64,000 bases of DNA. It comes from a virus. The notes under the pieces were generated by a model that worked only from the letters and a program-made list of their open reading frames with translations, was not told the DNA's origin and made no database searches. The position numbers and the translations under genes were made by a program. Where the stretch lies: the IMG/VR virus record IMGVR_UViG_3300023174_005350, positions 1 to 64,000 of that record; one strand, given 5' to 3'. Position 1 is the first letter of the stretch. Every line of letters begins with the position of its first letter. Below, piece by piece: positions 1-8,434 of this stretch.

Positions 1-29
1 AGATTGACAATCTCCAGATTGACGAGTTG

Positions 30-58
30 TTGCGTTCCCTTCGCAGCTAGGATATAAT
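30..58 (+). promoter_or_regulatory. sigma70-like promoter, leaderless type
   Basis: TTGCGT (30-35), 17-nt spacer, TATAAT (53-58). The ATG at 66 lies 7 nt after the -10 hexamer, which is where transcription would start, so no Shine-Dalgarno leader is possible. Confidence 0.75.
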
Positions 59-65
59 AACCACC

Positions 66-263
66 ATGACCATCAACGTTAAGAATCGTGACACTGGCAA
101 GCTTGTTTACTGTGGCGATACCATTGTTGGAATCTATAACGAGCCGTGGATTTTTCTTGCTATGTCAAGCCCAATGACAGTGTGGGTTCGTGACCCGATT
201 ACTGGTGCGGTTGTTGACTTTGACCCGTCCACTATGGTAATCGACGTGGACGTGGTAGCCTAA
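66..263 (+). CDS. small protein of unknown function (65 aa)
   Basis: No family recognised. The 65-residue product has a beta-rich pattern (repeated V/I alternation, WIFLAM and VWVRDP segments) and ends in an acidic-hydrophobic VIDVDVVA tail; it has one cysteine and no zinc motif, unlike most neighbours. The ATG at 66 is chosen because a TATAAT lies just upstream at 53-58 and the start begins ATGACC, as in several other genes of this region. It is the first of the leaderless micro-genes and is followed by palindromic module A. Confidence 0.7.
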   Translation: MTINVKNRDTGKLVYCGDTIVGIYNEPWIFLAMSSPMTVWVRDPITGAVVDFDPSTMVIDVDVVA

Positions 264-290
264 CCTGTAGCCTTGGCACGGAGCTTGCAC

Positions 291-346
291 AGCCGCCGCG
301 CCGTAGGCGCGGCTGGCATTATATCATAATAAAAAATAAAAGCAAG
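291..346 (-). promoter_or_regulatory. palindromic module A with inward reverse promoter
   Basis: GC-rich palindrome: arms 295-302 and 306-313 (8 bp, loop GTA). It is followed by ATTATA at 318-323, which on the minus strand is TATAAT, with CTTGCT (plus 341-346) 17 nt upstream of it. The promoter points leftwards through the palindrome, antisense to the gene at 66-263. No convincing forward promoter abuts it. The preceding sequence AGCCTTGGCA..GAG.TTGCA is shared with module B. Confidence 0.65.
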
Positions 347-445
347 AGAAAAAAACTAATAATGTCCACCCACCCACGGGCAAACGGCGCATGTTAGTCC
401 ATCCAGCAACGGGAGTCAAGGACGAAAAAAAATGCATCCACCCTC

Positions 446-474
446 TTGCACGCACACGGAAGCGCGTCTATAAT
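446..474 (+). promoter_or_regulatory. sigma70-like promoter, leaderless type
   Basis: TTGCAC (446-451), 17-nt spacer, TATAAT (469-474), 6 nt, then ATG at 481. Confidence 0.75.
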
Positions 475-480
475 AAGGGC

Positions 481-666
481 ATGACCAACCAAACCTGCAA
501 CGGACGGCACACGAAGAACGATGGTTCCTACTGGGTGAACGATGCGCGTGGTATCCCGCTTGCCCGCGTCTGCACCAAGTGCGAGGATGCGAAGCTTGCA
601 AAGTATCGGAAGGACGTTCGCACGAACTCTAACTATTGGGCAGACGAGATTGTTGACGGCGACTAA
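481..666 (+). CDS. small basic Cys-containing protein (61 aa)
   Basis: Unrecognised 61-residue protein with a CTKC pair near residue 37 and another Cys near residue 6, rich in K, R and N; it could bind zinc or nucleic acid. The frame is open further upstream (to 391), but ATG 481 is preferred: it sits 6 nt after a TATAAT, begins ATGACC like its neighbours, and is the point where typical small-protein sequence begins (MTNQTC). The last codons contain the -35 of the promoter for the next gene. Confidence 0.7.
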   Translation: MTNQTCNGRHTKNDGSYWVNDARGIPLARVCTKCEDAKLAKYRKDVRTNSNYWADEIVDGD

Positions 667-682
667 GGTTCCAGCGTATAAT
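653..682 (+). promoter_or_regulatory. sigma70-like promoter with leader
   Basis: TTGACG (653-658), 18-nt spacer, TATAAT (677-682). TTCCAGCGTATAATAT (669-684) is identical to 2123-2138. Unlike most promoters here, it leaves a leader of about 33 nt before ATG 722. Confidence 0.75.
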
Positions 683-688
683 ATCCCG

Positions 689-703
689 GCAGTTAACCCG
701 TAG
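689..703 (+). repeat. conserved leader block, copy 1
   Basis: GCAGTTAACCCGTAG, identical in all 15 bases to 1699-1713. Both copies begin 6-7 nt after a TATAAT, at or next to the expected +1, and both are followed by an A-rich GAGAGAAAAAA stretch before the ATG. Confidence 0.75.
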
Positions 704-721
704 CACAAACGAGAGAAAAAA

Positions 722-1024
722 ATGATCATCTTCCGTCGCCTCATCCGTTCCAAGGGTTCTCAGTCCGCGAAGCTTGTCGGTGGACACCGTTTCGCGGTGA
801 ATGTTAAGACGCTGATCGCTCATGCAAAGCAGACCCGTCACGTCTACGCTTTCATTGACGAGAACGGCAACGAAGGGACCATTCGTTCCGGTGTCCTCAT
901 GCGGACGGTTGATAGCCACGTTCGCAACACCCTGACGGTTCAGGATGCGATCCAGCGTCCCTTGCCGTTTTCGGTTGACAACACTCCCGAGGTTGTGATT
1001 CGGAATGGTGTGATTGCAGCCTAG
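722..1024 (+). CDS. protein of unknown function (100 aa)
   Basis: Unrecognised 100-residue protein. Residues 20-60 look like alternating beta strands (FAVNVKTLIAHAK, HVYAFIDENG), with an Asn/Val-rich C-terminal half. It is one of two genes here preceded by a real untranslated leader rather than a leaderless start; the leader shares a 15-nt block with that of the gene at 1732, so the two may be co-regulated although the proteins show no obvious similarity. Its TAG stop is followed at once by the TTGACA of module B. Confidence 0.7.
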   Translation: MIIFRRLIRSKGSQSAKLVGGHRFAVNVKTLIAHAKQTRHVYAFIDENGNEGTIRSGVLMRTVDSHVRNTLTVQDAIQRPLPFSVDNTPEVVIRNGVIAA

Positions 1025-1139
1025 TTGACAACCCCTTGGCTCCCGTGCTAGAATAAGGCGGGAGCCTTGGCATAGAGGTTGCAGCCGCCCTTCGGGCGTC
1101 GGCTGGCACGATTATATCATGGGCAAAAGATAAAAGCAA
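1025..1139. promoter_or_regulatory. palindromic module B with opposed promoters
   Basis: Forward: TTGACA (1025-1030), 18 nt, TAGAAT (1049-1054). The -10 sits in the centre of an inverted repeat, GGCTCCCG (1038-1045) and CGGGAGCC (1059-1066). Then comes the palindrome AGCCGCCC (1083-1090)/GGGC...GGCT (1094-1104), and a reverse promoter: ATTATA (1111-1116), 17 nt, AAGCAA (1134-1139), i.e. TTGCTT-17-TATAAT on the minus strand. The start sites face each other about 43 bp apart. Confidence 0.65.
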
Positions 1140-1174
1140 CTAAAAAAAGAAAAAAAGAAAGTGGTTCCACCCCC

Positions 1175-1203
1175 TTGCAATCGTATGGGAGCGCGCATAT
1201 AAT
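1175..1203 (+). promoter_or_regulatory. sigma70-like promoter, leaderless type
   Basis: TTGCAA (1175-1180), 17 nt, TATAAT (1198-1203), 6 nt, ATG 1210. Confidence 0.75.
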
Positions 1204-1209
1204 ATCGCC

Positions 1210-1377
1210 ATGACCCAGACCGAGTTTCCCTTCCTGAGCAAGATCCGCACCTGCGAGGTTTGCAAGCACTCTTATGTTTCCGTGCTTGTCAACTGGGATC
1301 GTTGCGGAGTGTGCGAGGAAAACGTTAGGAAAGAAAATCTGAAATCAATACTTGCACGCTTCAACGTGAAGGAGTAG
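1210..1377 (+). CDS. zinc-ribbon microprotein (55 aa)
   Basis: 55 residues beginning MTQTEFPFLSKIRTCEVC. Two CxxC knuckles (C15-C18 and C32-C35) separated by 13 residues form a classical zinc-ribbon layout, followed by a basic helix. Function is unknown; such proteins often bind nucleic acid or RNA polymerase, but nothing here proves that. The stop codon TAG (1375-1377) is also the first half of the -10 (TAGAAT) of the next gene, and the -35 of that promoter lies inside this gene. Confidence 0.7.
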   Translation: MTQTEFPFLSKIRTCEVCKHSYVSVLVNWDRCGVCEENVRKENLKSILARFNVKE

Positions 1378-1380
1378 AAT
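1352..1380 (+). promoter_or_regulatory. sigma70-like promoter, leaderless type
   Basis: TTGCAC (1352-1357), 17 nt, TAGAAT (1375-1380), 7 nt, ATG 1388. The -10 overlaps the preceding stop codon. Confidence 0.7.
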
Positions 1381-1387
1381 AACCGCC

Positions 1388-1552
1388 ATGAACAAGCCAA
1401 AGCGAATCAAGATTGTTCTCCAGAAGAAGGCGTGCGTCAAGTGTCTGACGCAATGGCAGACTAGCAATAAGGATAGCAAGGTTTGCCCTTCGTGCGTCAA
1501 TGACCCTTCAACAATCCTCACGCGGTGCCTTGCAAACATTGTGAAGCTGTGA
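1388..1552 (+). CDS. zinc-ribbon microprotein (54 aa)
   Basis: 54 residues starting MNKPKRIKIVLQKKACVKC, with CVKC (16-19) and CPSC (33-36). It has the same two-knuckle layout and nearly the same length as the product of 1210-1377, so the two may be diverged duplicates. The N-terminus is strongly basic. The start has no Shine-Dalgarno and lies 7 nt after a -10 hexamer. Function unknown. Confidence 0.7.
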   Translation: MNKPKRIKIVLQKKACVKCLTQWQTSNKDSKVCPSCVNDPSTILTRCLANIVKL

Positions 1553-1558
1553 GAGAAT
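1530..1558 (+). promoter_or_regulatory. weaker sigma70-like promoter, leaderless type
   Basis: TTGCAA (1530-1535), 17 nt, GAGAAT (1553-1558), 5 nt, ATG 1564. The -10 departs from consensus at two positions; support comes mainly from the shared geometry. Confidence 0.5.
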
Positions 1559-1563
1559 AAGAC

Positions 1564-1683
1564 ATGATCAAAGCAAAGCGGGTTGGCGGTCTTTACTTCC
1601 TGTCCATCGGTCGTCTCCAGATTTCATTTTGTGTCAAGCGTAAGCCTAGCAAGAAAAAGATGTTGGTCCCTCCGCAGTTCTGA
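1564..1683 (+). CDS. basic microprotein (39 aa)
   Basis: 39 residues, MIKAKRVGGLYFLSIGRLQI..., with a hydrophobic middle and a Lys-rich tail (KRKPSKKKM). No family is recognised. It is accepted because it fits the chain of promoter-ATG units, its frame is closed tightly by neighbours on both sides, and its composition matches them. Its TGA is followed within 3 nt by the TATAAT of the next gene. Confidence 0.5.
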   Translation: MIKAKRVGGLYFLSIGRLQISFCVKRKPSKKKMLVPPQF

Positions 1684-1691
1684 TGTATAAT
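1663..1691 (+). promoter_or_regulatory. sigma70-like promoter with leader
   Basis: TTGGTC (1663-1668), 17 nt, TATAAT (1686-1691). It leads into the conserved leader of the gene at 1732. Confidence 0.6.
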
Positions 1692-1698
1692 AACCCTC

Positions 1699-1713
1699 GC
1701 AGTTAACCCGTAG
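1699..1713 (+). repeat. conserved leader block, copy 2
   Basis: GCAGTTAACCCGTAG, identical to 689-703 and in the same position relative to promoter and start codon. Confidence 0.75.
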
Positions 1714-1731
1714 AACGAAAGAGAAAAAACA

Positions 1732-1968
1732 ATGGCTACTTTCCTTGACGTGGCAGAGAAGCTTAACTCCTACAAGCGTTCCAACGGTCAGCGCGTGCTG
1801 TATGTGACCGATGCAGCGATTGTGCTTGACAGTCCGGTAGTGAGCGGTAACGAGGTTGCCGCCGTTATTGAGGGTCAGGTTTGCACGTTCACTCTCGGTG
1901 TCAACTGCTATCGTATGCTCCGCACGCGCCGTGTTGAGACTACTGAAACGTGGACGCTGGACGAGTAA
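1732..1968 (+). CDS. protein of unknown function (78 aa)
   Basis: 78 residues, MATFLDVAEKLNSYKRSNGQ..., with a helical start and beta-like remainder (VLYVTDAAIVLD, VAAVIEGQVCTFTLGV). Not recognised. It has a leader of about 35 nt shared in part with the gene at 722. Module C follows 11 nt after its stop; the reverse promoter of that module would produce RNA antisense to this gene. Confidence 0.7.
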   Translation: MATFLDVAEKLNSYKRSNGQRVLYVTDAAIVLDSPVVSGNEVAAVIEGQVCTFTLGVNCYRMLRTRRVETTETWTLDE

Positions 1969-1979
1969 GAAAATAAAGC

Positions 1980-2061
1980 TTGACAGCTTGCCGAGTCGGT
2001 GGCATAATAGCCGCCGATTTCGGCGGCTGCATATTATATCATAAGGAAAAGAATAAAGCAA
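1980..2061. promoter_or_regulatory. palindromic module C with face-to-face promoters
   Basis: Forward: TTGACA (1980-1985), 17 nt, CATAAT (2003-2008). Perfect palindrome AGCCGCCG (2009-2016), loop ATTT, CGGCGGCT (2021-2028). Reverse: ATTATA (2033-2038), 17 nt, AAGCAA (2056-2061), i.e. TTGCTT-17-TATAAT. The -10 hexamers are 24 bp apart, so both predicted start sites fall inside the palindrome. Confidence 0.75.
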
Positions 2062-2106
2062 TAAAGAAAAGCACGGGAAGATAAGAAAAAAAAGATGTGC
2101 AGGCTC

Positions 2107-2136
2107 TTGATTCCCGTAGAGATTCCAGCGTATAAT
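2107..2136 (+). promoter_or_regulatory. sigma70-like promoter, leaderless type
   Basis: TTGATT (2107-2112), 18 nt, TATAAT (2131-2136), 6 nt, ATG 2143. The 16 bases 2123-2138 are identical to 669-684. Confidence 0.7.
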
Positions 2137-2142
2137 ATGGGC

Positions 2143-2274
2143 ATGAACGAGAACAACAGCTGGTGCAAGGATTGCGGCACGGAGAAGAACCTTGTCATTT
2201 TCTCCGAGGCTCCGAAGGTTGTCCTTTGCACGGAGTGCGCCATGTGGCGTGACAGCAAGATTGACAAGCGGTAA
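2143..2274 (+). CDS. zinc-ribbon microprotein (43 aa)
   Basis: 43 residues, MNENNSWCKDCGTEKNLVIF..., with CKDC (8-11) and CTEC (29-32), a minimal two-knuckle zinc-binding layout. Function unknown. The start follows TATAAT by 6 nt. The -35 (TTGACA) for the next gene lies in its last codons. Confidence 0.7.
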   Translation: MNENNSWCKDCGTEKNLVIFSEAPKVVLCTECAMWRDSKIDKR

Positions 2275-2290
2275 AAGCGCAAGGTATAAT
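2261..2290 (+). promoter_or_regulatory. sigma70 promoter, consensus hexamers, leaderless type
   Basis: TTGACA (2261-2266), 18 nt, TATAAT (2285-2290), 6 nt, ATG 2297. Both hexamers are perfect. Confidence 0.8.
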
Positions 2291-2296
2291 ATCACC

Positions 2297-2527
2297 ATGA
2301 CCAACAACAACGGCGTCACCTTCTGCGATGTGTGCGACAACGAGTGCGAGCAGAGCGAGATCTCTGTGCGTGAGGACTTCAACGGTGAGTGCGAGGAAGT
2401 GTGCCGCACCTGCGTGGATCAGGAGAACATGACGGAGGATGAAGTGGACGAGATGAACATGTTGGAGGAGGAGTCTGACGCCGATGTGCGGGAAGATATC
2501 CTCGATATGTACTACAACGAATATTAG
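2297..2527 (+). CDS. acidic zinc-ribbon-like protein (76 aa)
   Basis: 76 residues, MTNNNGVTFCDVCDNECEQ..., with CDVC near residues 10-13, further Cys at 17 and 31, and CRTC near 36-39, then a very acidic tail (DEVDEMNMLEEESDADVRED). The acidic tail is like that of DNA-mimic or protein-inhibitor phage proteins, which is only a suggestion. The start is chosen by the promoter 6 nt upstream; the frame is open earlier. Its TAG stop runs directly into the TTGACA of module D. Confidence 0.7.
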   Translation: MTNNNGVTFCDVCDNECEQSEISVREDFNGECEEVCRTCVDQENMTEDEVDEMNMLEEESDADVREDILDMYYNEY

Positions 2528-2613
2528 TTGACAGGCGTTGGGGGGTTTGCTATACTAGCCCCCCGCGCCGTAGGCGCGGCTGGCATTATACCCCATGTGT
2601 AGTGGCGAGTCAA
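2528..2613. promoter_or_regulatory. palindromic module D with face-to-face promoters
   Basis: Forward: TTGACA (2528-2533), 17 nt, TATACT (2551-2556). Palindrome CCGCGCC (2563-2569), loop GTA, GGCGCGG (2573-2579). Reverse: ATTATA (2585-2590), 17 nt, AGTCAA (2608-2613), i.e. TTGACT-17-TATAAT. The -10 hexamers are 28 bp apart. Confidence 0.75.
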
Positions 2614-2648
2614 GCTAAAAGCGCAGCGTGGAAAAAATAAATAAATGC

Positions 2649-2677
2649 TTGCGTGTACCCCCGGTTCATGAGAGTAT
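2649..2677 (+). promoter_or_regulatory. weak sigma70-like promoter, leaderless type
   Basis: TTGCGT (2649-2654), 17 nt, GAGTAT (2672-2677), 6 nt, ATG 2684. The -10 is poor, but spacing matches the rest of the family. Confidence 0.45.
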
Positions 2678-2683
2678 GTGCGT

Positions 2684-3049
2684 ATGACCAACAACAACAT
2701 GACCATCGAGATCCGCGTGGGCGACGAGCTTCAGGAGATTGTTGTGTCCACCAAGTGGGAGATTTGCGAGCGTTGCGAGGGCAACGGCAAGCACGACCCT
2801 GAGTCGTTCTCCAACGGCTTTACCCAGAGCGAGTTCTATGAACTCTTCGACGATGAGGAGGAGCGCGAAAACTATTTCAATGGCAAGCACGATGTTGCGT
2901 GCCGCGAGTGCAACGCCTCGGGCAAGGTGCGCGTGCCTGACCTTAGCTCTCTCACGGACGAGGAGCGCGAGGGCTACGAGCGTGCGCTGGAGGACCGTGC
3001 CGACTACGAGCGGGAGTGCCGCTACGAGCGCCGGTACCTCGGGTACTAG
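2684..3049 (+). CDS. DnaJ-type zinc-finger-like protein (121 aa)
   Basis: 121 residues. CERCEGNGKH (C28, C31) and CRECNASGKV (C73, C76) are CxxCxGxG-like repeats as in the cysteine-rich region of DnaJ, but the J domain and the other two repeats are missing. The C-terminal half is a long charged helix rich in E, R and Y. A GTG at 2678 is also in frame; ATG 2684 is preferred because it starts MTNNN, exactly like the gene at 2297, and keeps the 6-nt distance to the -10. Partner and role unknown. Confidence 0.7.
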   Translation: MTNNNMTIEIRVGDELQEIVVSTKWEICERCEGNGKHDPESFSNGFTQSEFYELFDDEEERENYFNGKHDVACRECNASGKVRVPDLSSLTDEEREGYERALEDRADYERECRYERRYLGY

Positions 3050-3109
3050 TTGCCCCTGTCAAGGGGGTGGTGGTTGGCTAAATAAAAAAAATAAAAGCCT
3101 CCCACCCCC

Positions 3110-3205
3110 TTGACGAATATCCACAGGTATGGTAAACTAGCCGCCTCGTTCCTCGGCGGGAGGCTGGGACACCTATATTATATCACGGGTGGATAGGTAG
3201 CGCAA
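3110..3205. promoter_or_regulatory. palindromic module E with face-to-face promoters
   Basis: Forward: TTGACG (3110-3115), 17 nt, TAAACT (3133-3138). Palindrome CCGCC (3141-3145)/GGCGG (3155-3159), with flanking AGCC/GGCT. Reverse: ATTATA (3177-3182), 17 nt, GCGCAA (3200-3205), i.e. TTGCGC-17-TATAAT. The -10 hexamers are 38 bp apart. Confidence 0.65.
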
Positions 3206-3230
3206 GAAATAAAAAAAGATATTCCACCAC

Positions 3231-3260
3231 TTGCCCACCACCATCCTATCAAGGTAAGCT
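3231..3260 (+). promoter_or_regulatory. probable sigma70-like promoter
   Basis: TTGCCC (3231-3236), 18 nt, TAAGCT (3255-3260), followed by a leader with ATAGGAG before ATG 3282. Confidence 0.45.
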
Positions 3261-3281
3261 AGACACATAGGAGAAAAGATT

Positions 3282-3692
3282 ATGGCGAGCAAAGACTACG
3301 AGAAGAACGATAAGTATTATGCAAAGCTTGAGCAACAGATTGAACAGGTTGCACTTATCATGCATAGGCTTAACAACATGTGGAGCTTCACAGGTTCCCA
3401 GCTGTCCTATGCCTGTGACAACTACATGCGTCCCCGTGACCTTGCCACACTAGAGGAGCGTGTGCATTGCTTGGTGCAGGCTTATGCTGCGCTAACAAAG
3501 AGTGTCACCTTGTATACATCTCAGGGATATGTCCTGCCAGCTTTCTGGGATAGTACGTTTGGCAAGCTAGGACAAGATATAATCTTTACCTTGCCTGAGA
3601 TGCTGCATGTCAAAAAAGAAAAAGCCTTCTATAAAAATTTGATAAAGACCTTCACCCTTGCGTGGGGGGAGTCCCCCTCCCTCCCCCTGTAA
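3282..3692 (+). CDS. helical protein of unknown function (136 aa)
   Basis: 136 residues, mostly helical, with aromatic and basic residues; no recognised domain. It differs from the preceding genes in having a conventional leader with AGGAG 8-12 nt before the ATG. It is the last gene of the GC-rich block; base composition drops sharply after it. Confidence 0.7.
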   Translation: MASKDYEKNDKYYAKLEQQIEQVALIMHRLNNMWSFTGSQLSYACDNYMRPRDLATLEERVHCLVQAYAALTKSVTLYTSQGYVLPAFWDSTFGKLGQDIIFTLPEMLHVKKEKAFYKNLIKTFTLAWGESPSLPL

Positions 3693-3726
3693 CGTCCATG
3701 GACCAGAAATATAAGTCTCTATGCTC

Positions 3727-3756
3727 TTGACAAGCGCGCTAAAAGGTGCCTATGGT
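3727..3756 (+). promoter_or_regulatory. possible sigma70-like promoter
   Basis: TTGACA (3727-3732), 18 nt, TATGGT (3751-3756), 24 nt before ATG 3781. It may read the small-protein operon that follows. Confidence 0.45.
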
Positions 3757-3780
3757 CTTAAATATACACGGGACTAAAAA

Positions 3781-4041
3781 ATGAAAAAATTCAAGTTCAA
3801 AATTGGTGATCTCATTGCATGTTATAATGATCCCGATAATTATAAAATAATACTCGGTTGGGTTGTAGACCGTTGGAAAAATAAAAAAGGCGAGAACAAC
3901 TACCATGTACATTGGAGCGATATAGCCGATAATTCGGATTATATACAAACGCCAATAGATGAATATGGCGTAAATGAGTGTTATAATTTACTACAAAAAG
4001 CCATCGAAACGGACACATGGCATGGTAAAAAAATTCTGTAA
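3781..4041 (+). CDS. IGDLV-family small beta protein, member 1 (86 aa)
   Basis: First of at least eight small paralogues between 3.7 and 7.7 kb sharing the pattern IGDLV - about 15 residues - G-[YW]-[IV]-V - about 10-20 residues - Y-x-V-x-W. Here: IGDLIACY, ILGWVVDRW, YHVHWSDI, then a C-terminal helix. The pattern suits a small SH3/KOW-like beta barrel. Comparable proteins occur in many phages but I know of no established function. Confidence 0.7.
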   Translation: MKKFKFKIGDLIACYNDPDNYKIILGWVVDRWKNKKGENNYHVHWSDIADNSDYIQTPIDEYGVNECYNLLQKAIETDTWHGKKIL

Positions 4042-4062
4042 AAAATTTTTTGGAAATTTTTC

Positions 4063-4326
4063 ATGAAAAAATCAAAGTACAATATAGGTGACTTGGTAGC
4101 AACCTATGTCCAATTTGATGATAAAAATGATATATTATTATTAGGATGGATAGTTAGTAAAAATATATATGTTACTATCAATAATAGAATGACGTGGATA
4201 TATGATATAGAATGGGCCGATGGTGAGCAGGAGGATGAAGTAGAAGAAGATGTTGTATATAATGTTATAAAGGCATTTCGGGAAGCAAAGCGCTATAAGC
4301 GTTGGACCCGAAGTAAATGGACATGA
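4063..4326 (+). CDS. IGDLV-family small beta protein, member 2 (87 aa)
   Basis: Core: IGDLVATY, LLLGWIVSK, YDIEWADG, followed by an acidic patch and a basic C-terminus. It begins 21 nt after member 1, with the same MKK(F/S)K start, indicating tandem duplication. It overlaps the following nuclease gene by 10 nt in another frame. Confidence 0.7.
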   Translation: MKKSKYNIGDLVATYVQFDDKNDILLLGWIVSKNIYVTINNRMTWIYDIEWADGEQEDEVEEDVVYNVIKAFREAKRYKRWTRSKWT

Positions 4327-5042
4327 TATATACGGAAGATGAAATAAAAAAACGATGTGTAGAATTAGTGAACGGACCCCCTCTGCCGGTGCTTGGCAAG
4401 GGGGATAAACGTTTTGGCATGACGCTAGAGAGGTATATGAATATCGATATAAACTCTCGCGTAACAAGCGATATTGAAAGTCTTGATTTAGAAATAAAAG
4501 CAAAAATAAAAAAAGAAACAGACCTAACGCTTTTTTCAACAAAACCTGCTTTTCTACGCTTGAATAGCGATGAATTCTTTCGTATTCATAACAAATTAAA
4601 AGATAACACTGAATCCTTGTACACGGACGTAGGCGGCGGCGTGAACTCATTTGGTTTGCAAATAAGCATCCAACAGACTGCTGAAGATATAGAAATGATT
4701 ATCTATGATGCTGAACGGAATATAAATCGCGCTTCAATCAACTTTGGTCACATTAAACATATAGCAAAAATGAAAATGCGAAACCTCTTGGTCGCCTACG
4801 GCGACAGATTGGAGGTTGCGGGCGTCGAACATGTCCGGTTTGATTCAGTTCATATCCACCAAAATTTGAATTTGACGAACGAAAAGATTCGTGACTTTCT
4901 ACTTAATAATAAGATGGTTTATTCTTTCAGACAGCGGAAGCGTCATGGTAAATACAAAGACCATGGTAGTGCATTCCGTTTGACGGATCCAAAATATTTG
5001 AAAGAATTGTATAGCAGTTATGAAGAGATACAACGTAAATGA
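4317..5042 (+). CDS. MvaI/BcnI-like restriction endonuclease fold protein (241 aa)
   Basis: Residues 27-80 carry the block typical of MvaI/BcnI-type nucleases: GKGDKRFGMTLERYMNID, then D52 followed by E59-I-K61 (PD-(D/E)xK-type catalytic trio), then TLFSTKPAF. The C-terminal half is unassigned and may recognise DNA. No DNA methyltransferase lies nearby, so the phage would need modified DNA or another way to protect itself; degradation of host or rival phage DNA is the natural guess. It is embedded in the small-protein array, overlapping both neighbours, and is slightly GC-richer than they are. Family assignment is from memory of the motif. Confidence 0.6.
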   Translation: MDMIYTEDEIKKRCVELVNGPPLPVLGKGDKRFGMTLERYMNIDINSRVTSDIESLDLEIKAKIKKETDLTLFSTKPAFLRLNSDEFFRIHNKLKDNTESLYTDVGGGVNSFGLQISIQQTAEDIEMIIYDAERNINRASINFGHIKHIAKMKMRNLLVAYGDRLEVAGVEHVRFDSVHIHQNLNLTNEKIRDFLLNNKMVYSFRQRKRHGKYKDHGSAFRLTDPKYLKELYSSYEEIQRK

Positions 5043-5242
5043 GAGATGATATTCCAATTGGAACATTGGTTTCCCTAAGTGGTGAAGACATAGGTATTGT
5101 TGTTGATCATCACTATATAAAAGCTTGGCCGGATGAAAGCGCAGATAACATAAGATATAAAGTTATCTATAAAATCAATATCATCAATAAAAATTTATAT
5201 AAATATTGCTATTCATATGAGATGGTAATATTAAGTGAATAG
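5039..5242 (+). CDS. IGDLV-family small beta protein, member 3 (67 aa)
   Basis: Core: IGTLVSL, IGIVVDHHY, YKVIYKI, YSYEMVIL. It starts in an ATGA overlap with the nuclease stop, so the two are translationally coupled. Divergent member; assignment rests on order and spacing of the motif. Confidence 0.65.
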   Translation: MRDDIPIGTLVSLSGEDIGIVVDHHYIKAWPDESADNIRYKVIYKINIINKNLYKYCYSYEMVILSE

Positions 5243-5429
5243 GCGATTCGATACAGGCGATCTTGTGCATTTCAAGATGGATAACGCATATTTTGGCTTA
5301 TGTGTTGTTACTGGTTTTGGAAAAAATTTTTTTAAAGATGGGCAATATACTGTAGTTAATTGTGCTTCTGGTGAAGTGTATATTGCTTTTGATTATGAAC
5401 TATTTTCCGTCGAAGAGTTTGGTATATAA
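5235..5429 (+). CDS. IGDLV-family small beta protein, member 4, GTG start (64 aa)
   Basis: Core: TGDLVHFK, FGLCVVTGF, YTVVNCASG, DYELFSV. The only start that keeps the N-terminal strand is GTG 5235, overlapping the preceding stop by 8 nt; the first in-frame ATG would remove the GDLV motif. Confidence 0.6.
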   Translation: MNRRFDTGDLVHFKMDNAYFGLCVVTGFGKNFFKDGQYTVVNCASGEVYIAFDYELFSVEEFGI

Positions 5430-5443
5430 AACTAATTATATAC

Positions 5444-5674
5444 ATGAGTCGTAAACTAAATGAATATATATATCCCTATAGAAAAATTAGTATTGGAAGC
5501 TTGGTAGAAGTAAAAATTATCAAACGTACAATAGATATATGCATTGTTACTGATAGAAATACTGGTTTACGAGAGAAAGACCATTGGTATATTGTTCGTA
5601 GCATATTTACCGATAAAGAATATGCCGCTTATCCTAATGAATTAAAAATTCTTAGTGGAGAAGTAGAAGACTAA
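5444..5674 (+). CDS. IGDLV-family small beta protein, member 5 (76 aa)
   Basis: Core: IGSLVEVKI, ICIVTDRN, WYIVRSIF, AAYPNELKIL, with an extra N-terminal 15 residues rich in Tyr. Divergent copy in the same tandem series. Confidence 0.65.
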   Translation: MSRKLNEYIYPYRKISIGSLVEVKIIKRTIDICIVTDRNTGLREKDHWYIVRSIFTDKEYAAYPNELKILSGEVED

Positions 5675-5681
5675 TTATTGT

Positions 5682-6212
5682 ATGAATAAAAATAATTCCG
5701 CTGAATTTGATGCATACGTTGAGGAAATAAAAAAAGAATTTCCTAATTTTGAGATTGTTCCAAAACAAGATTCACGTTTAATGAAGTTTATATATAATGT
5801 AACGCTTATGCGTTTTTGGAATCCACAATTCATGGGATATTTTATAACAACTATGTTTGGTAAAGTATATATGCCTAAACAATATATTGGTATGCCTACA
5901 ATGGTTGATGTTTTACGTCATGAAGTTGTGCATTTACGTGATATGAAAAAATATCCTGTACTGTTTGAACTAACTTATATCCTATTTCCTCTGCCAATTG
6001 TCTTTACTATGCGTGCTTTTTGGGAATATCGTGGTTATTGTGAAAGCATTTTAGCTAATAATGATAGATATGGTTATATTTCTAGCAATAGTATTGATTT
6101 TTTTGTGGAACAGTTTACTGGATCGAACTATTTATGGATGTGTCCGTTTCCTAAATTTGTTAGAAATAAATTTCTAAAATTTGCTAAAAGTAAAAATATA
6201 AAGGTAATATAA
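5682..6212 (+). CDS. HExxH zinc-peptidase-like protein (176 aa)
   Basis: LRHEVVHLRD gives an HExxH zinc-binding helix at about H80-E81-H84, preceded by a strand typical of gluzincin/metzincin-like folds. A downstream E near 'YRGYCESI' may be the third ligand. A hydrophobic stretch (FELTYILFPLPIVFTM) follows the zinc helix and could be membrane-associated. Known phage proteins of this size carry the same motif, but their substrate is not established. No signal peptide, so it acts inside the cell or in the virion. Confidence 0.6.
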   Translation: MNKNNSAEFDAYVEEIKKEFPNFEIVPKQDSRLMKFIYNVTLMRFWNPQFMGYFITTMFGKVYMPKQYIGMPTMVDVLRHEVVHLRDMKKYPVLFELTYILFPLPIVFTMRAFWEYRGYCESILANNDRYGYISSNSIDFFVEQFTGSNYLWMCPFPKFVRNKFLKFAKSKNIKVI

Positions 6213-6214
6213 TT

Positions 6215-6679
6215 ATGAAAATTACAAAAGATTATTTACGTCAAGTGATTCGTGAAAGTTTAGAAGAAGTTGGCGAAAAAGAAAATACTAACCCATACTA
6301 TTTAGTTGGTAAGATCTTAGGTACATTGAGTGGTATACTTAGTCTTTTAAGTGTTAGAAACATAAAAGACACTGAAACTGAGTTGGAATATGCTATAACA
6401 ATAGTAAAAAAATTACAAGATAGATTAAGAAAAGAAAATTTACCAACTGTAAGTGAAAACAAGACTATATCCAAAGACTCAATCCGTCAAATGATTCGTG
6501 AAAGTTTGGAAGAAGCAGTATCTTCTGATCCTCGCATGGCTGTATATGATGAATTAATACAAGGTCTTAATAAAGTAGTAAAAAAATATAAAATTTTTCC
6601 CGATACCGATCAAGAAATGAATTTACTTATTGGTAAAGTACAACAACAATTAAGAGATATTAGAGATAATATAAAATAA
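6215..6679 (+). CDS. protein with duplicated MKITK/IRESLEE motif (154 aa)
   Basis: Starts MKITKDYLRQVIRESLEE (1-18); residues 83-100 repeat it as KTISKDSIRQMIRESLEE. Each copy is followed by a helical region ending in a coiled-coil-like stretch, so the gene looks like a fusion of two motif-helix units. Genes at 6681 and 18642 begin with the same motif. I recall similar N-termini in marine phage proteins; function unknown. SD-poor start 3 nt after the previous stop. Confidence 0.65.
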   Translation: MKITKDYLRQVIRESLEEVGEKENTNPYYLVGKILGTLSGILSLLSVRNIKDTETELEYAITIVKKLQDRLRKENLPTVSENKTISKDSIRQMIRESLEEAVSSDPRMAVYDELIQGLNKVVKKYKIFPDTDQEMNLLIGKVQQQLRDIRDNIK

Positions 6680-6680
6680 C

Positions 6681-6908
6681 ATGAAACTTACAAAATCCTT
6701 TATTAAACAATTAATCCGTGAAGCAATAGATGATCCAAGTATTGCTGGTAGCCGTATGAGCGGAGAAGAAGTTTATCATGATGAAGAACGTTATAGAGAA
6801 GGCGAACAGGAAGAAAATGAAGTAATACGTGAACTAGAAGACGTTATTACTGGTTTAATGAATGTAAAAAGAAAGCTTGAATTAGCGCAAAAAAAAGAAA
6901 ATAAATAG
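6681..6908 (+). CDS. MKLTK-motif small helical protein (75 aa)
   Basis: Starts MKLTKSFIKQLIREAIDD, the same N-terminal helix as 6215 and 18642, followed by a highly charged stretch (DEERYREGEQEENEV) and a helix ending in Lys. Last gene before a terminator. Confidence 0.65.
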   Translation: MKLTKSFIKQLIREAIDDPSIAGSRMSGEEVYHDEERYREGEQEENEVIRELEDVITGLMNVKRKLELAQKKENK

Positions 6909-6919
6909 TTTTTAAGATA

Positions 6920-6983
6920 CCCGCTCTGCCTCTATCCCTCGCTTCTGAGTGACATGCCCACTGATGGCGGGTTTTTTATTTTT
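6920..6983 (+). terminator. probable rho-independent terminator with long apical region
   Basis: CCCGC (6920-6924) pairs with GCGGG (6967-6971), followed by TTTTTTATTTTTT. The 42-nt interior holds a further hairpin (AGTG/CACT). It ends the 3.8-6.9 kb operon. Confidence 0.6.
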
Positions 6984-7002
6984 TAAAAACTATTTATATA
7001 TT

Positions 7003-7206
7003 ATGTTCCGTAGAGCATGCTTTGTTAGCTTAGGTGATTTCGTGTATTCAAAAAAGGATACAGATCGAATCTATGGATACGTTACTTGGATAGATGAAAA
7101 TAGTGAAACAGGTGAATTCTACGTAGAAGTTCATCATGATGATGACGCCGATCCTCTTTATTTTTATGACAACGAATTAGTAGTCATGAGAATGGAAAAT
7201 GAGTAA
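7003..7206 (+). CDS. IGDLV-family small beta protein, member 6 (67 aa)
   Basis: Core: LGDFVYSK, IYGYVTWID, FYVEVHHDDDADP, LYFYDNELVV. Upstream in-frame codons lie inside the terminator, so ATG 7003 is the sensible start. It begins a second block of three family members. Confidence 0.65.
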   Translation: MFRRACFVSLGDFVYSKKDTDRIYGYVTWIDENSETGEFYVEVHHDDDADPLYFYDNELVVMRMENE

Positions 7207-7429
7207 AGATCATTTATTATTACACAATATAGGTGATTTAGTTTTAAGTAGAGATAAAAATAATAATATTATATTAGGATATATCACTGGAAAATTCGAT
7301 GGACTTACAACCACTTATTACGAAGTAGAATGGTTGCACGGTGAAGGTTATATGTTTTATGGTTATTATGACATAATAAAGATGAAAGGGGAATTATTAA
7401 AGTTTAAAGAGGAAAAAAAGATTGGATGA
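7199..7429 (+). CDS. IGDLV-family small beta protein, member 7 (76 aa)
   Basis: Core: IGDLVLSRD, IILGYITGKF, YYEVEWLHGEGY, then a Lys-rich tail. Overlaps member 6 by 8 nt. IGDLVLS and the ILG/VLG strand are shared closely with member 8, indicating recent duplication. Confidence 0.7.
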   Translation: MSKDHLLLHNIGDLVLSRDKNNNIILGYITGKFDGLTTTYYEVEWLHGEGYMFYGYYDIIKMKGELLKFKEEKKIG

Positions 7430-7655
7430 GCATAGTATTGGAGATTTGGTTTTATCTTATACATATAACGGAAAAGCCGTTCTAGGAGTCATTAGAAATG
7501 AACAAATCTCCCCTATTGACAAGACGCACAATCTTTATGATATATTGTGGTTAGAGAAAGAAGAAGAGATAGTTAGTGGTTATTACACGCATATAACTAT
7601 AACAAATCTTAAAAAGAATTTAGATAGTTATCTTTATGATTATGATAAAAAATAA
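7422..7655 (+). CDS. IGDLV-family small beta protein, member 8, TTG start (77 aa)
   Basis: Core: IGDLVLSYT, AVLGVIRNE, YDILWLEKEEEI. The only start consistent with the family is TTG 7422, preceded by AGAGGA at about 7408-7413; a nearby ATG (7426) is in another frame. Overlaps member 7 by 8 nt. Confidence 0.6.
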   Translation: MDEHSIGDLVLSYTYNGKAVLGVIRNEQISPIDKTHNLYDILWLEKEEEIVSGYYTHITITNLKKNLDSYLYDYDKK

Positions 7656-7794
7656 ACAAACATTAGAATTGCTATTGTATTCTTTAATAGCATTAAGTCT
7701 CATAACTGCTTCTGTATATCTTGCTTTTACATATCCTAACACGAAACCGGAGCCACGTTATAAAAATACAATACAACGTGATATAAATCCATAA
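7642..7794 (+). CDS. small single-span membrane protein (50 aa)
   Basis: MIKNKQTLELLLYSLIALSL... : a short basic N-terminus, one transmembrane segment at about residues 9-30, then a short polar, Pro-containing tail. It overlaps the previous gene by 14 nt and ends 1 nt before a secreted transglycosylase gene. Position and topology would fit a lysis accessory (spanin- or holin-like), but its length is minimal and no motif confirms this. Confidence 0.5.
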   Translation: MIKNKQTLELLLYSLIALSLITASVYLAFTYPNTKPEPRYKNTIQRDINP

Positions 7795-7795
7795 T

Positions 7796-8434
7796 ATGAA
7801 AAAACTTTTACTTGCTATAGTTGTTTTGATGTGTACTGGCGTTGCTCCTGCGCCTATTATGAAGCCACTTGCATGGGAACAACCGGACAAACCGGGGCGG
7901 CAAAAATGGAGTGAACATACATTCCAGAATATATATCGTAATTTCGATAAGCTCGATAAAGCGATAGATATGCAATATTTTTGTCCTGAGTACAACAGGT
8001 TAAACCGTGATGAGCGTGTTAATGCTTGGGCGCAGCTTATAGCTGCAATCGCATGGTATGAGAGCGGTTGGAACCCCCGTGCCCGAGCCGTGCAGCCGTC
8101 TTTCGGCTATGATAAGGTAACGGGTGAAACTGTTGTGGCAGAAGGACTATTCCAATTAGGCTATATGGATTCGCTGTGGCGAGATTATTGCGAGTTCGAT
8201 TGGTATGGGGATAGAAATCTAAATGATGATGACCTAAGCCGTACCATGATTAATCCGCGTAACCAAATACGGTGTACGGTTGGCATCCTAGCAGACCAAG
8301 TGAATCGCCACGGGCGTATAGTGATACCAAATGGGGCATACTGGTCTGTGCTCATGGAAGGGCATCGGAATCAACGTATAGACGGTATACGGCGTATGGT
8401 GATGCGTATAAAGGGTTGTCTTAACGAGGAGTAG
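7796..8434 (+). CDS. secreted lytic transglycosylase-like protein (212 aa)
   Basis: Sec signal peptide at residues 1-20 (MKKLLLAIVVLMCTG...). The mature part has a lysozyme-like SLT pattern: IAWYESGWNP with probable catalytic E89, and GLFQLGYMDSLW matching the GLxQ motif. It should cleave peptidoglycan glycan strands in the periplasm. Its GC content is well above that of its neighbours, suggesting later acquisition. A strong terminator follows. Alternative: a periplasmic hydrolase used in superinfection control rather than lysis. Confidence 0.7.
   Translation: MKKLLLAIVVLMCTGVAPAPIMKPLAWEQPDKPGRQKWSEHTFQNIYRNFDKLDKAIDMQYFCPEYNRLNRDERVNAWAQLIAAIAWYESGWNPRARAVQPSFGYDKVTGETVVAEGLFQLGYMDSLWRDYCEFDWYGDRNLNDDDLSRTMINPRNQIRCTVGILADQVNRHGRIVIPNGAYWSVLMEGHRNQRIDGIRRMVMRIKGCLNEE

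Follow-up and report, generated by a model that had tools for sequence, protein, structure and literature searches.

How are small phage genes expressed when a promoter stands almost directly in front of their start codons? The question is raised by the first 3.7 kilobases (kb) of the window analyzed here, which comprises bases 1 to 64000 of the 75,005-base IMG/VR virus record IMGVR_UViG_3300023174_005350 and begins with an array of small open reading frames (ORFs). A first-pass annotation had described this array as an entire region of leaderless genes, eight of them with their own sigma70 promoters. Judged from its sequence, the array is best explained by leaderless sigma70 transcription; it is probably a compact series of exchangeable cassettes, expressed mostly as leaderless messenger RNAs (mRNAs) from their own promoters, with elements between them that resemble the promoter early stem-loops (PeSLs) of T4-type phages. 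The genes are listed below (aa, amino acids; nt, nucleotides; SD, Shine-Dalgarno sequence; dN/dS, ratio of nonsynonymous to synonymous substitution rates).

66-263, plus strand: predicted leaderless ORF, 65 aa (MTINVK), -10 hexamer TATAAT at 53-58, 7 nt before the ATG; dN/dS of 0.03 with its ortholog in the related contig L002.
481-666, plus strand: predicted leaderless ORF, 61 aa, with C6, H10, C31, and C34 conserved; dN/dS of 0.11 to 0.73.
722-1024, plus strand: predicted leadered ORF, 100 aa; promoter at 653-682, its -10 some 40 nt ahead of the ATG.
1210-1377, plus strand: predicted leaderless ORF, 55 aa, with two CxxC motifs.
1388-1552, plus strand: predicted leaderless ORF, 54 aa, with two CxxC motifs; -10 TAGAAT overlaps the preceding TAG stop.
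1564-1683, plus strand: predicted leaderless ORF, 39 aa; the -10, GAGAAT, is weak and gains its extension from the preceding TGA stop.
1732-1968, plus strand: predicted leadered ORF, 78 aa; GCAGTTAACCCG leader in common with 722.
2143-2274, plus strand: predicted leaderless ORF, 43 aa, zinc-ribbon-like.
2297-2527, plus strand: predicted leaderless ORF, 76 aa, with two CxxC motifs; promoter TTGACA-18-TATAAT (12 of 12 positions).
2684-3049, plus strand: predicted leaderless ORF, 121 aa, carrying two CxxCxGxG-type motifs; the -10, GAGTAT, is weak and has a TGA extension.
3282-3692, plus strand: predicted leadered ORF, 136 aa, preceded by the SD AGGAG; final gene within the GC-rich region.

All eight ATGs named in the first-pass annotation (66, 481, 1210, 1388, 1564, 2143, 2297, and 2684) open ORFs, and each lies, as it had stated, 5 to 7 nt past a -10 hexamer accompanied by a TTG-type -35 element. 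The hexamer is TATAAT before 66 (7 nt) and before 481, 1210, 2143, and 2297 (6 nt each), TAGAAT before 1388 (7 nt), GAGAAT before 1564 (5 nt), and GAGTAT before 2684 (6 nt), i.e., a strong -10 (TATAAT or TAGAAT) at six of the eight starts; the two weak hexamers are each extended by TGn and have their TTG at 17 nt. The reported start sequence recurs as ATGACC in five genes, ATGAAC in two, and ATGATC in one, and the paired CxxC motifs are indeed present in five products (1210, 1388, 2143, 2297, and 2684). The proposed nesting of promoters in preceding stop codons holds for two starts, as the TAG stop lies inside TAGAAT at 1388 and the TGA stop supplies the TG of the extension at 1564; at 2297 only the -35 element falls within the preceding ORF, and the remaining starts are not nested. 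The description of the entire region as leaderless was too strong, because at least three genes within 3.7 kb (722, 1732, and 3282) appear to have leaders of about 30 to 40 nt, as estimated from their -10 sites or SD. The first two share a leader containing GCAGTTAACCCG and an A-rich stretch 5' of the ATG, which lies about 35 to 40 nt from the -10, and an AGGAG SD precedes the start of 3282. Leaderless and leadered genes would therefore alternate in the array.

With the 100-aa protein of 722 as the query, we identified four IMG/VR contigs, L001 (43 kb), L002 (119 kb), L003, and L004, all with a similar array of 50% guanine-plus-cytosine (GC) content. The arrays of L003 and L004 are near-identical, and L003 was therefore excluded from the counts. 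Profile searches with three array proteins and a search for the stem-loop pattern described below yielded no contigs beyond these four. Between arrays, some genes are conserved and others are inserted or replaced while their neighbors are kept; L002, for example, adds two putative leaderless genes (1584 and 2044) and has another gene where 2297 would lie. To estimate chance expectation, ATGs located 5 to 7 nt past a hexamer matching TATAAT at 5 or more of 6 positions were counted and compared with 100 dinucleotide shuffles. Window positions 1 to 3300 contain six such ATGs, the shuffles averaging 0.25 and never exceeding 2, and the conservation of this spacing in related phages, which the first-pass annotation had named as a check, is borne out by L001 (14 versus a shuffle mean of 0.96), L002 (8 versus 0.34), and L004 (13 versus 0.83). 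The counts in the arrays peak sharply at 6 nt. From 3.8 to 64 kb of the window, the same pattern occurs at two further ORFs (8500 and 14967).

We then compiled 44 predicted leaderless starts from the four arrays (8, 12, 10, and 14), hand-chosen from ORFs and -10 sites, and compared them with 11 leadered starts, those retained out of 16. The base 5' of the ATG is C in 40 of the 44 and T in the other 4; sigma70 promoters usually start transcription (+1) at an A that follows a pyrimidine. The TTG of the -35 element begins 35 to 36 nt ahead of the ATG in 38/44, so that these promoters would put +1 at the start codon, and an alternative ATG preceded by an SD within 75 nt was found for none of the 44. 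Cytosine and adenine together make up 73% of codons 2 to 7, compared with 53% in the leadered genes and 46% across the remainder of the leaderless genes; PMC9031893 describes leaderless translation as strengthened by CA repeats near the start. Orthologous leaderless ORFs have dN/dS values of 0.00 to 0.73 in 31/31 comparisons (2297 being outside this set) and are, by this measure, under purifying selection. Orthologs retain the distance between -10 and ATG, and that of 2684 in L004 has a better hexamer, AATAAT. Good support for the leaderless reading thus comes from the spacing, its conservation in three additional arrays, the pyrimidine next to the ATG, the lack of SD-preceded alternatives, and purifying selection on the ORFs, and the promoter sequences further suggest early expression and use of sigma70. 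A gene whose product begins MGKTYKDKRE (L001 2269; L004 1840) has its ATG only 0 to 1 nt past TATAAT, at L001 behind the preceding stop, and would therefore not be expected to yield a leaderless mRNA from that promoter.

Starts of this type are not confined to the array. We scanned viral contigs for the pattern TTGAC-N18/19-TATAATA-N4-CATGA, which places the ATG 6 nt past the hexamer, and for the same pattern with the ATG shifted five bases to 11 nt; the former gave at least 120 loci. The two scans cover different contigs, and fractions of the matches listed are compared. Among the matches listed, 110 of 127 ATGs at 6 nt open an ORF of at least 40 aa (versus 36% of other CATGA at the same loci), with an SD core at 4 of these 110 starts and an SD-preceded ATG within 75 nt in 15 of the 127. 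At 11 nt, 52 of 121 ATGs among the matches listed open such an ORF, 40 of the 52 with an SD core. These fractions suggest that leaderless-type starts are widespread among environmental phages, so that the first-pass description of the array as unusual applies to its density and not to the start type itself. A second phage group (L089, L103, L113, L117, L129, L145, and others), with contigs of up to 349 kb, has repeated GGTTGAC...TATAATACACACATG starts, several genes per stretch.

Several observations count against a leaderless reading of the array. The -10 is weak at 1564 (4 of 6 matches to TATAAT) and 2684 (3 of 6), and many -35 hexamers are weak (e.g., TTGCGT and TTGCAC). Because the -10 was one criterion in choosing the 44 starts, it is not independent evidence within that set, nor are the starts independent of one another, as orthologs were counted repeatedly. 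An SD-like core lies upstream of 12/44 leaderless starts (versus 6/11 leadered ones), although transcription beginning at the ATG would leave such cores out of the mRNA. RNA polymerase starting 1 to 3 nt further downstream could cut the AUG. In L129, an SD and then a further ATG come after some starts that have the same promoter spacing, which cautions against taking the first ATG as the start in every case.

We weighed three other explanations. The ATGs might merely coincide with a favored pyrimidine-A transcription start, with the ORFs being translated independently of an SD from longer transcripts of the plus-strand promoters at 1025, 1980, and 2528. Upstream plus-strand promoters are indeed present in four of the five window spacers, and in L129 the same spacing is followed by an SD and another ATG; however, an SD-preceded ATG near the start is absent from all 44 array genes, the 6-nt spacing and the C/A-rich codons are kept, and the stems would sit inside the supposed leader, which makes this explanation quite unlikely. 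It is also very unlikely that the closeness of -10 and ATG is a by-product of genome packing with no translational meaning. Promoters do overlap the preceding stop at 1388 and 1564, but leadered genes occur in the same array, and 481, 1210, 2143, and 2684 lie behind spacers of 150 to 220 nt, so that room for a leader existed.

A host-like design, in which the phage infects a member of a group with ordinary leaderless genes (an actinobacterium or a member of Deinococcus-Thermus), would leave the leaderless reading right but unremarkable. PMC3160421 puts the share of leaderless genes in Actinobacteria and Deinococcus-Thermus above 20%, and the leaderless gene that opens the L001 and L004 arrays (with the L001 protein as the query) has relatives in Streptomyces and Mycobacterium phages. 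The same gene has relatives in Synechococcus phages as well, however, and the rest of the phage differs, with just the two further matches to the pattern from 3.8 to 64 kb; the best relative of a baseplate protein is that of Microcystis phage Mel-JY01 (32% identity), and the -35 and -10 elements are Escherichia coli-like. We consider such a design unlikely, though less so than the other two explanations.

In the preferred reading of the array as leaderless cassettes, host RNA polymerase with its housekeeping sigma factor would read most genes from their own promoters, starting at the A of the start codon or at the base just before it. Ribosomes would then bind the 5'-terminal AUG and the C/A-rich codons that follow, producing a small protein from a leaderless mRNA. 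PeSL-like elements, each consisting of a stem-loop, often behind a plus-strand promoter and faced by an opposing one, would separate transcription units and offer recombination points for gene exchange. The five elements of the window, given without strand, are as follows.

273-345: element 1, with TTGGCAC-N5-TTGCA at 273-289, a stem-loop at 295-313, and a minus-strand promoter (-10 at 318-323, -35 at 340-345).
1025-1139: element 2, with a plus-strand promoter at 1025-1054, a dyad around its -10 (1038-1045/1059-1066), TTGGCAT-N5-TTGCA at 1067-1083, a stem-loop at about 1084-1103, and a minus-strand promoter (-10 at 1111-1116, -35 at 1134-1139).
1980-2061: element 3, with a plus-strand promoter at 1980-2008, a stem-loop at 2009-2028, and a minus-strand promoter (-10 at 2033-2038, -35 at 2056-2061).
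2528-2613: element 4, with a plus-strand promoter at 2528-2556, a stem-loop at 2563-2579, and a minus-strand promoter TTGACT-17-TATAAT (2613-2585).
3110-3205: element 5, with a plus-strand promoter at 3110-3138, a stem-loop at about 3140-3167 (by eye), and a minus-strand promoter (-10 at 3177-3182).

A GC stem-loop occurs in the window spacers and in their counterparts, with covarying stems whose sequence and loop change while pairing is kept; our script printed three of the five window elements, and two with imperfect stems were read by eye. Behind the stem-loop, a minus-strand TATAAT has a TTG at 16 nt (6 elements) or 17 nt (18 elements) in all 24 elements of the four arrays, and a TGn extension in 22 of them. 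Among the 15 other ATTATA-like sites listed, one (L004 642) has a best -35 ending in CAA, at 15 nt, and three stem-loops of like make lack a minus-strand -10 (L001 3296, L001 344, and L004 2881). A plus-strand promoter precedes the stem-loop in many spacers, including four of the five in the window. The facing promoters are probably too close for simultaneous occupancy, and minus-strand transcripts would reach the end of the upstream gene in antisense orientation.

A plus-strand terminator scan passed one of the five window stem-loops (2008-2029), and a plain terminator seems an unlikely reading for most stem-loops, which have no U-tract. Integron gene cassettes were also rejected as a model, since cassettes there are promoterless and the leaderless genes here have their own promoters. 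A search of Rfam with window positions 1 to 8000 gave a single match (expect value of 0.9), far under the gathering score. The nearest known frame is a PeSL-like role in cassette exchange. T4-type PeSLs (Arbiol 2010 and Comeau 2014, as described in PMC4503421) place an early-type promoter and a stem-loop between exchangeable small genes, and here too a promoter is joined to a stem-loop in the spacers of a variable region; in the arrays, however, the opposing promoter is conserved, the U-tract is mostly absent, and a second promoter, of the leaderless kind, serves the next gene. Opposing promoters around covarying stem-loops are, within the literature searched, an undescribed spacer design. It is conceivable, but rather unlikely, that these are two-way spacers in which the stem-loop sits between mutually exclusive sigma70-type promoters, each cassette yielding a leaderless sense mRNA and, from its 3' side, a structured antisense RNA, with the phage shifting their balance during infection, and that near-consensus leaderless promoters in general represent an unrecognized expression class of environmental phages.

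Some spacer promoters carry a further symmetry. In a listing of stems of at least 5 pairs, a dyad of 6 to 8 perfect pairs with differing arms spans the -10 in 14 of the 21 listed promoters (two of the 21 being gene promoters), and the longest dyad at the -10 among the 44 leaderless-gene promoters has 5 pairs. Dyads of 7 to 8 pairs surround the plus-promoter -10 at window 1025-1066, at L001 1901, 4762, and 6304, and at L004 1479, 4331, and 5115; they are candidates for a DNA cruciform or for an RNA hairpin of read-through transcripts. Other spacers have TTGGCAY-N5-TTGCA directly before the stem-loop (window 273-289 and 1067-1083). These are the only two sites of this motif in the 75-kb record, and both lie just before a stem-loop; some sites in the relative G001 lie elsewhere. 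The sigma54 consensus at -24/-12 is TGGCAY-N5-TTGCW, and the motif fits it; we note the match but did not adopt a sigma54 reading.

Leaderless phage genes are already known, and what is new here is the spacer design; in the open papers searched, we found no report of a leaderless phage gene array or of an opposing-promoter/stem-loop spacer design. In lambda cI and in PY54 cI and cro, a strong promoter likewise stands directly at the AUG, and the PY54 RNA was mapped as beginning with AUG (PMC4488713), but these are single repressor genes of temperate phages, whereas 8 to 14 small genes stand in a row in each array here. In Deinococcus-Thermus and Actinobacteria, a -10-type hexamer directly precedes the start codon (as described in PMC12340547 and PMC3160421), but on cellular chromosomes, whereas the phage cassette array adds a -35 TTG at 35 to 36 nt in 38/44 starts. 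The authors of the study of Bacillus phage AR9 write that phage transcripts are often leaderless (PMC5312081); AR9 itself has leaders of 26 to 491 nt. With 8 to 14 natural, predicted leaderless genes beside leadered neighbors on one short DNA, and orthologs at several distances, the array offers a direct test of what a 5'-terminal AUG needs and, through its density, a natural setting in which to study translation that uses no ribosome-binding site. If such starts are as common in phages as the scan suggests, gene callers that rely on the SD may place starts wrongly and overlook small genes.

Searches of PHROGs and Pfam with ten array ORFs returned nothing over a Pfam cutoff, the 722 protein having a weak match, under the cutoff, to DUF7307 (Pam3 gp33-like). 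Predicted structures were weak, with a mean predicted local distance difference test (pLDDT) score of 66 for 481 and of 47, which is not usable, for 2684. That the CxxC products may be zinc-binding host-takeover proteins is a guess. No relative of the 722 protein was found among named phages or in bacterial genomes, a nucleotide search gave zero matches to named phages, and a baseplate wedge family match was the sole sign of a possible T4-type affiliation. Phage-encoded transfer-messenger RNAs (tmRNAs) lie on the minus strand of L025 (1057-1402) and L026 (1635-1980), with the tag ANDNVELSDYALAA; a comparison of the tag pattern for host assignment gave no match.

The array also differs in composition from the rest of the window. 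GC content is about 50% in the first 3 kb and about 30% in the remainder, and third-position GC is 0.54 to 0.83 in 11 array ORFs versus 0.16 to 0.43 in 14 other ORFs of the window. The GC step at the array edge (comparing window positions 1-3700 with 3800-64000) is also present in the relatives. The window and L002 are 89% alike across the first 1.2 kb and less so beyond, and represent two different phages, and yet both contigs start at the identical base, within the end of an open frame, which may be either a genome end or a shared assembly break. The relative G001 has seven transfer RNA genes (L022), located within its first 20 kb and ahead of the array.

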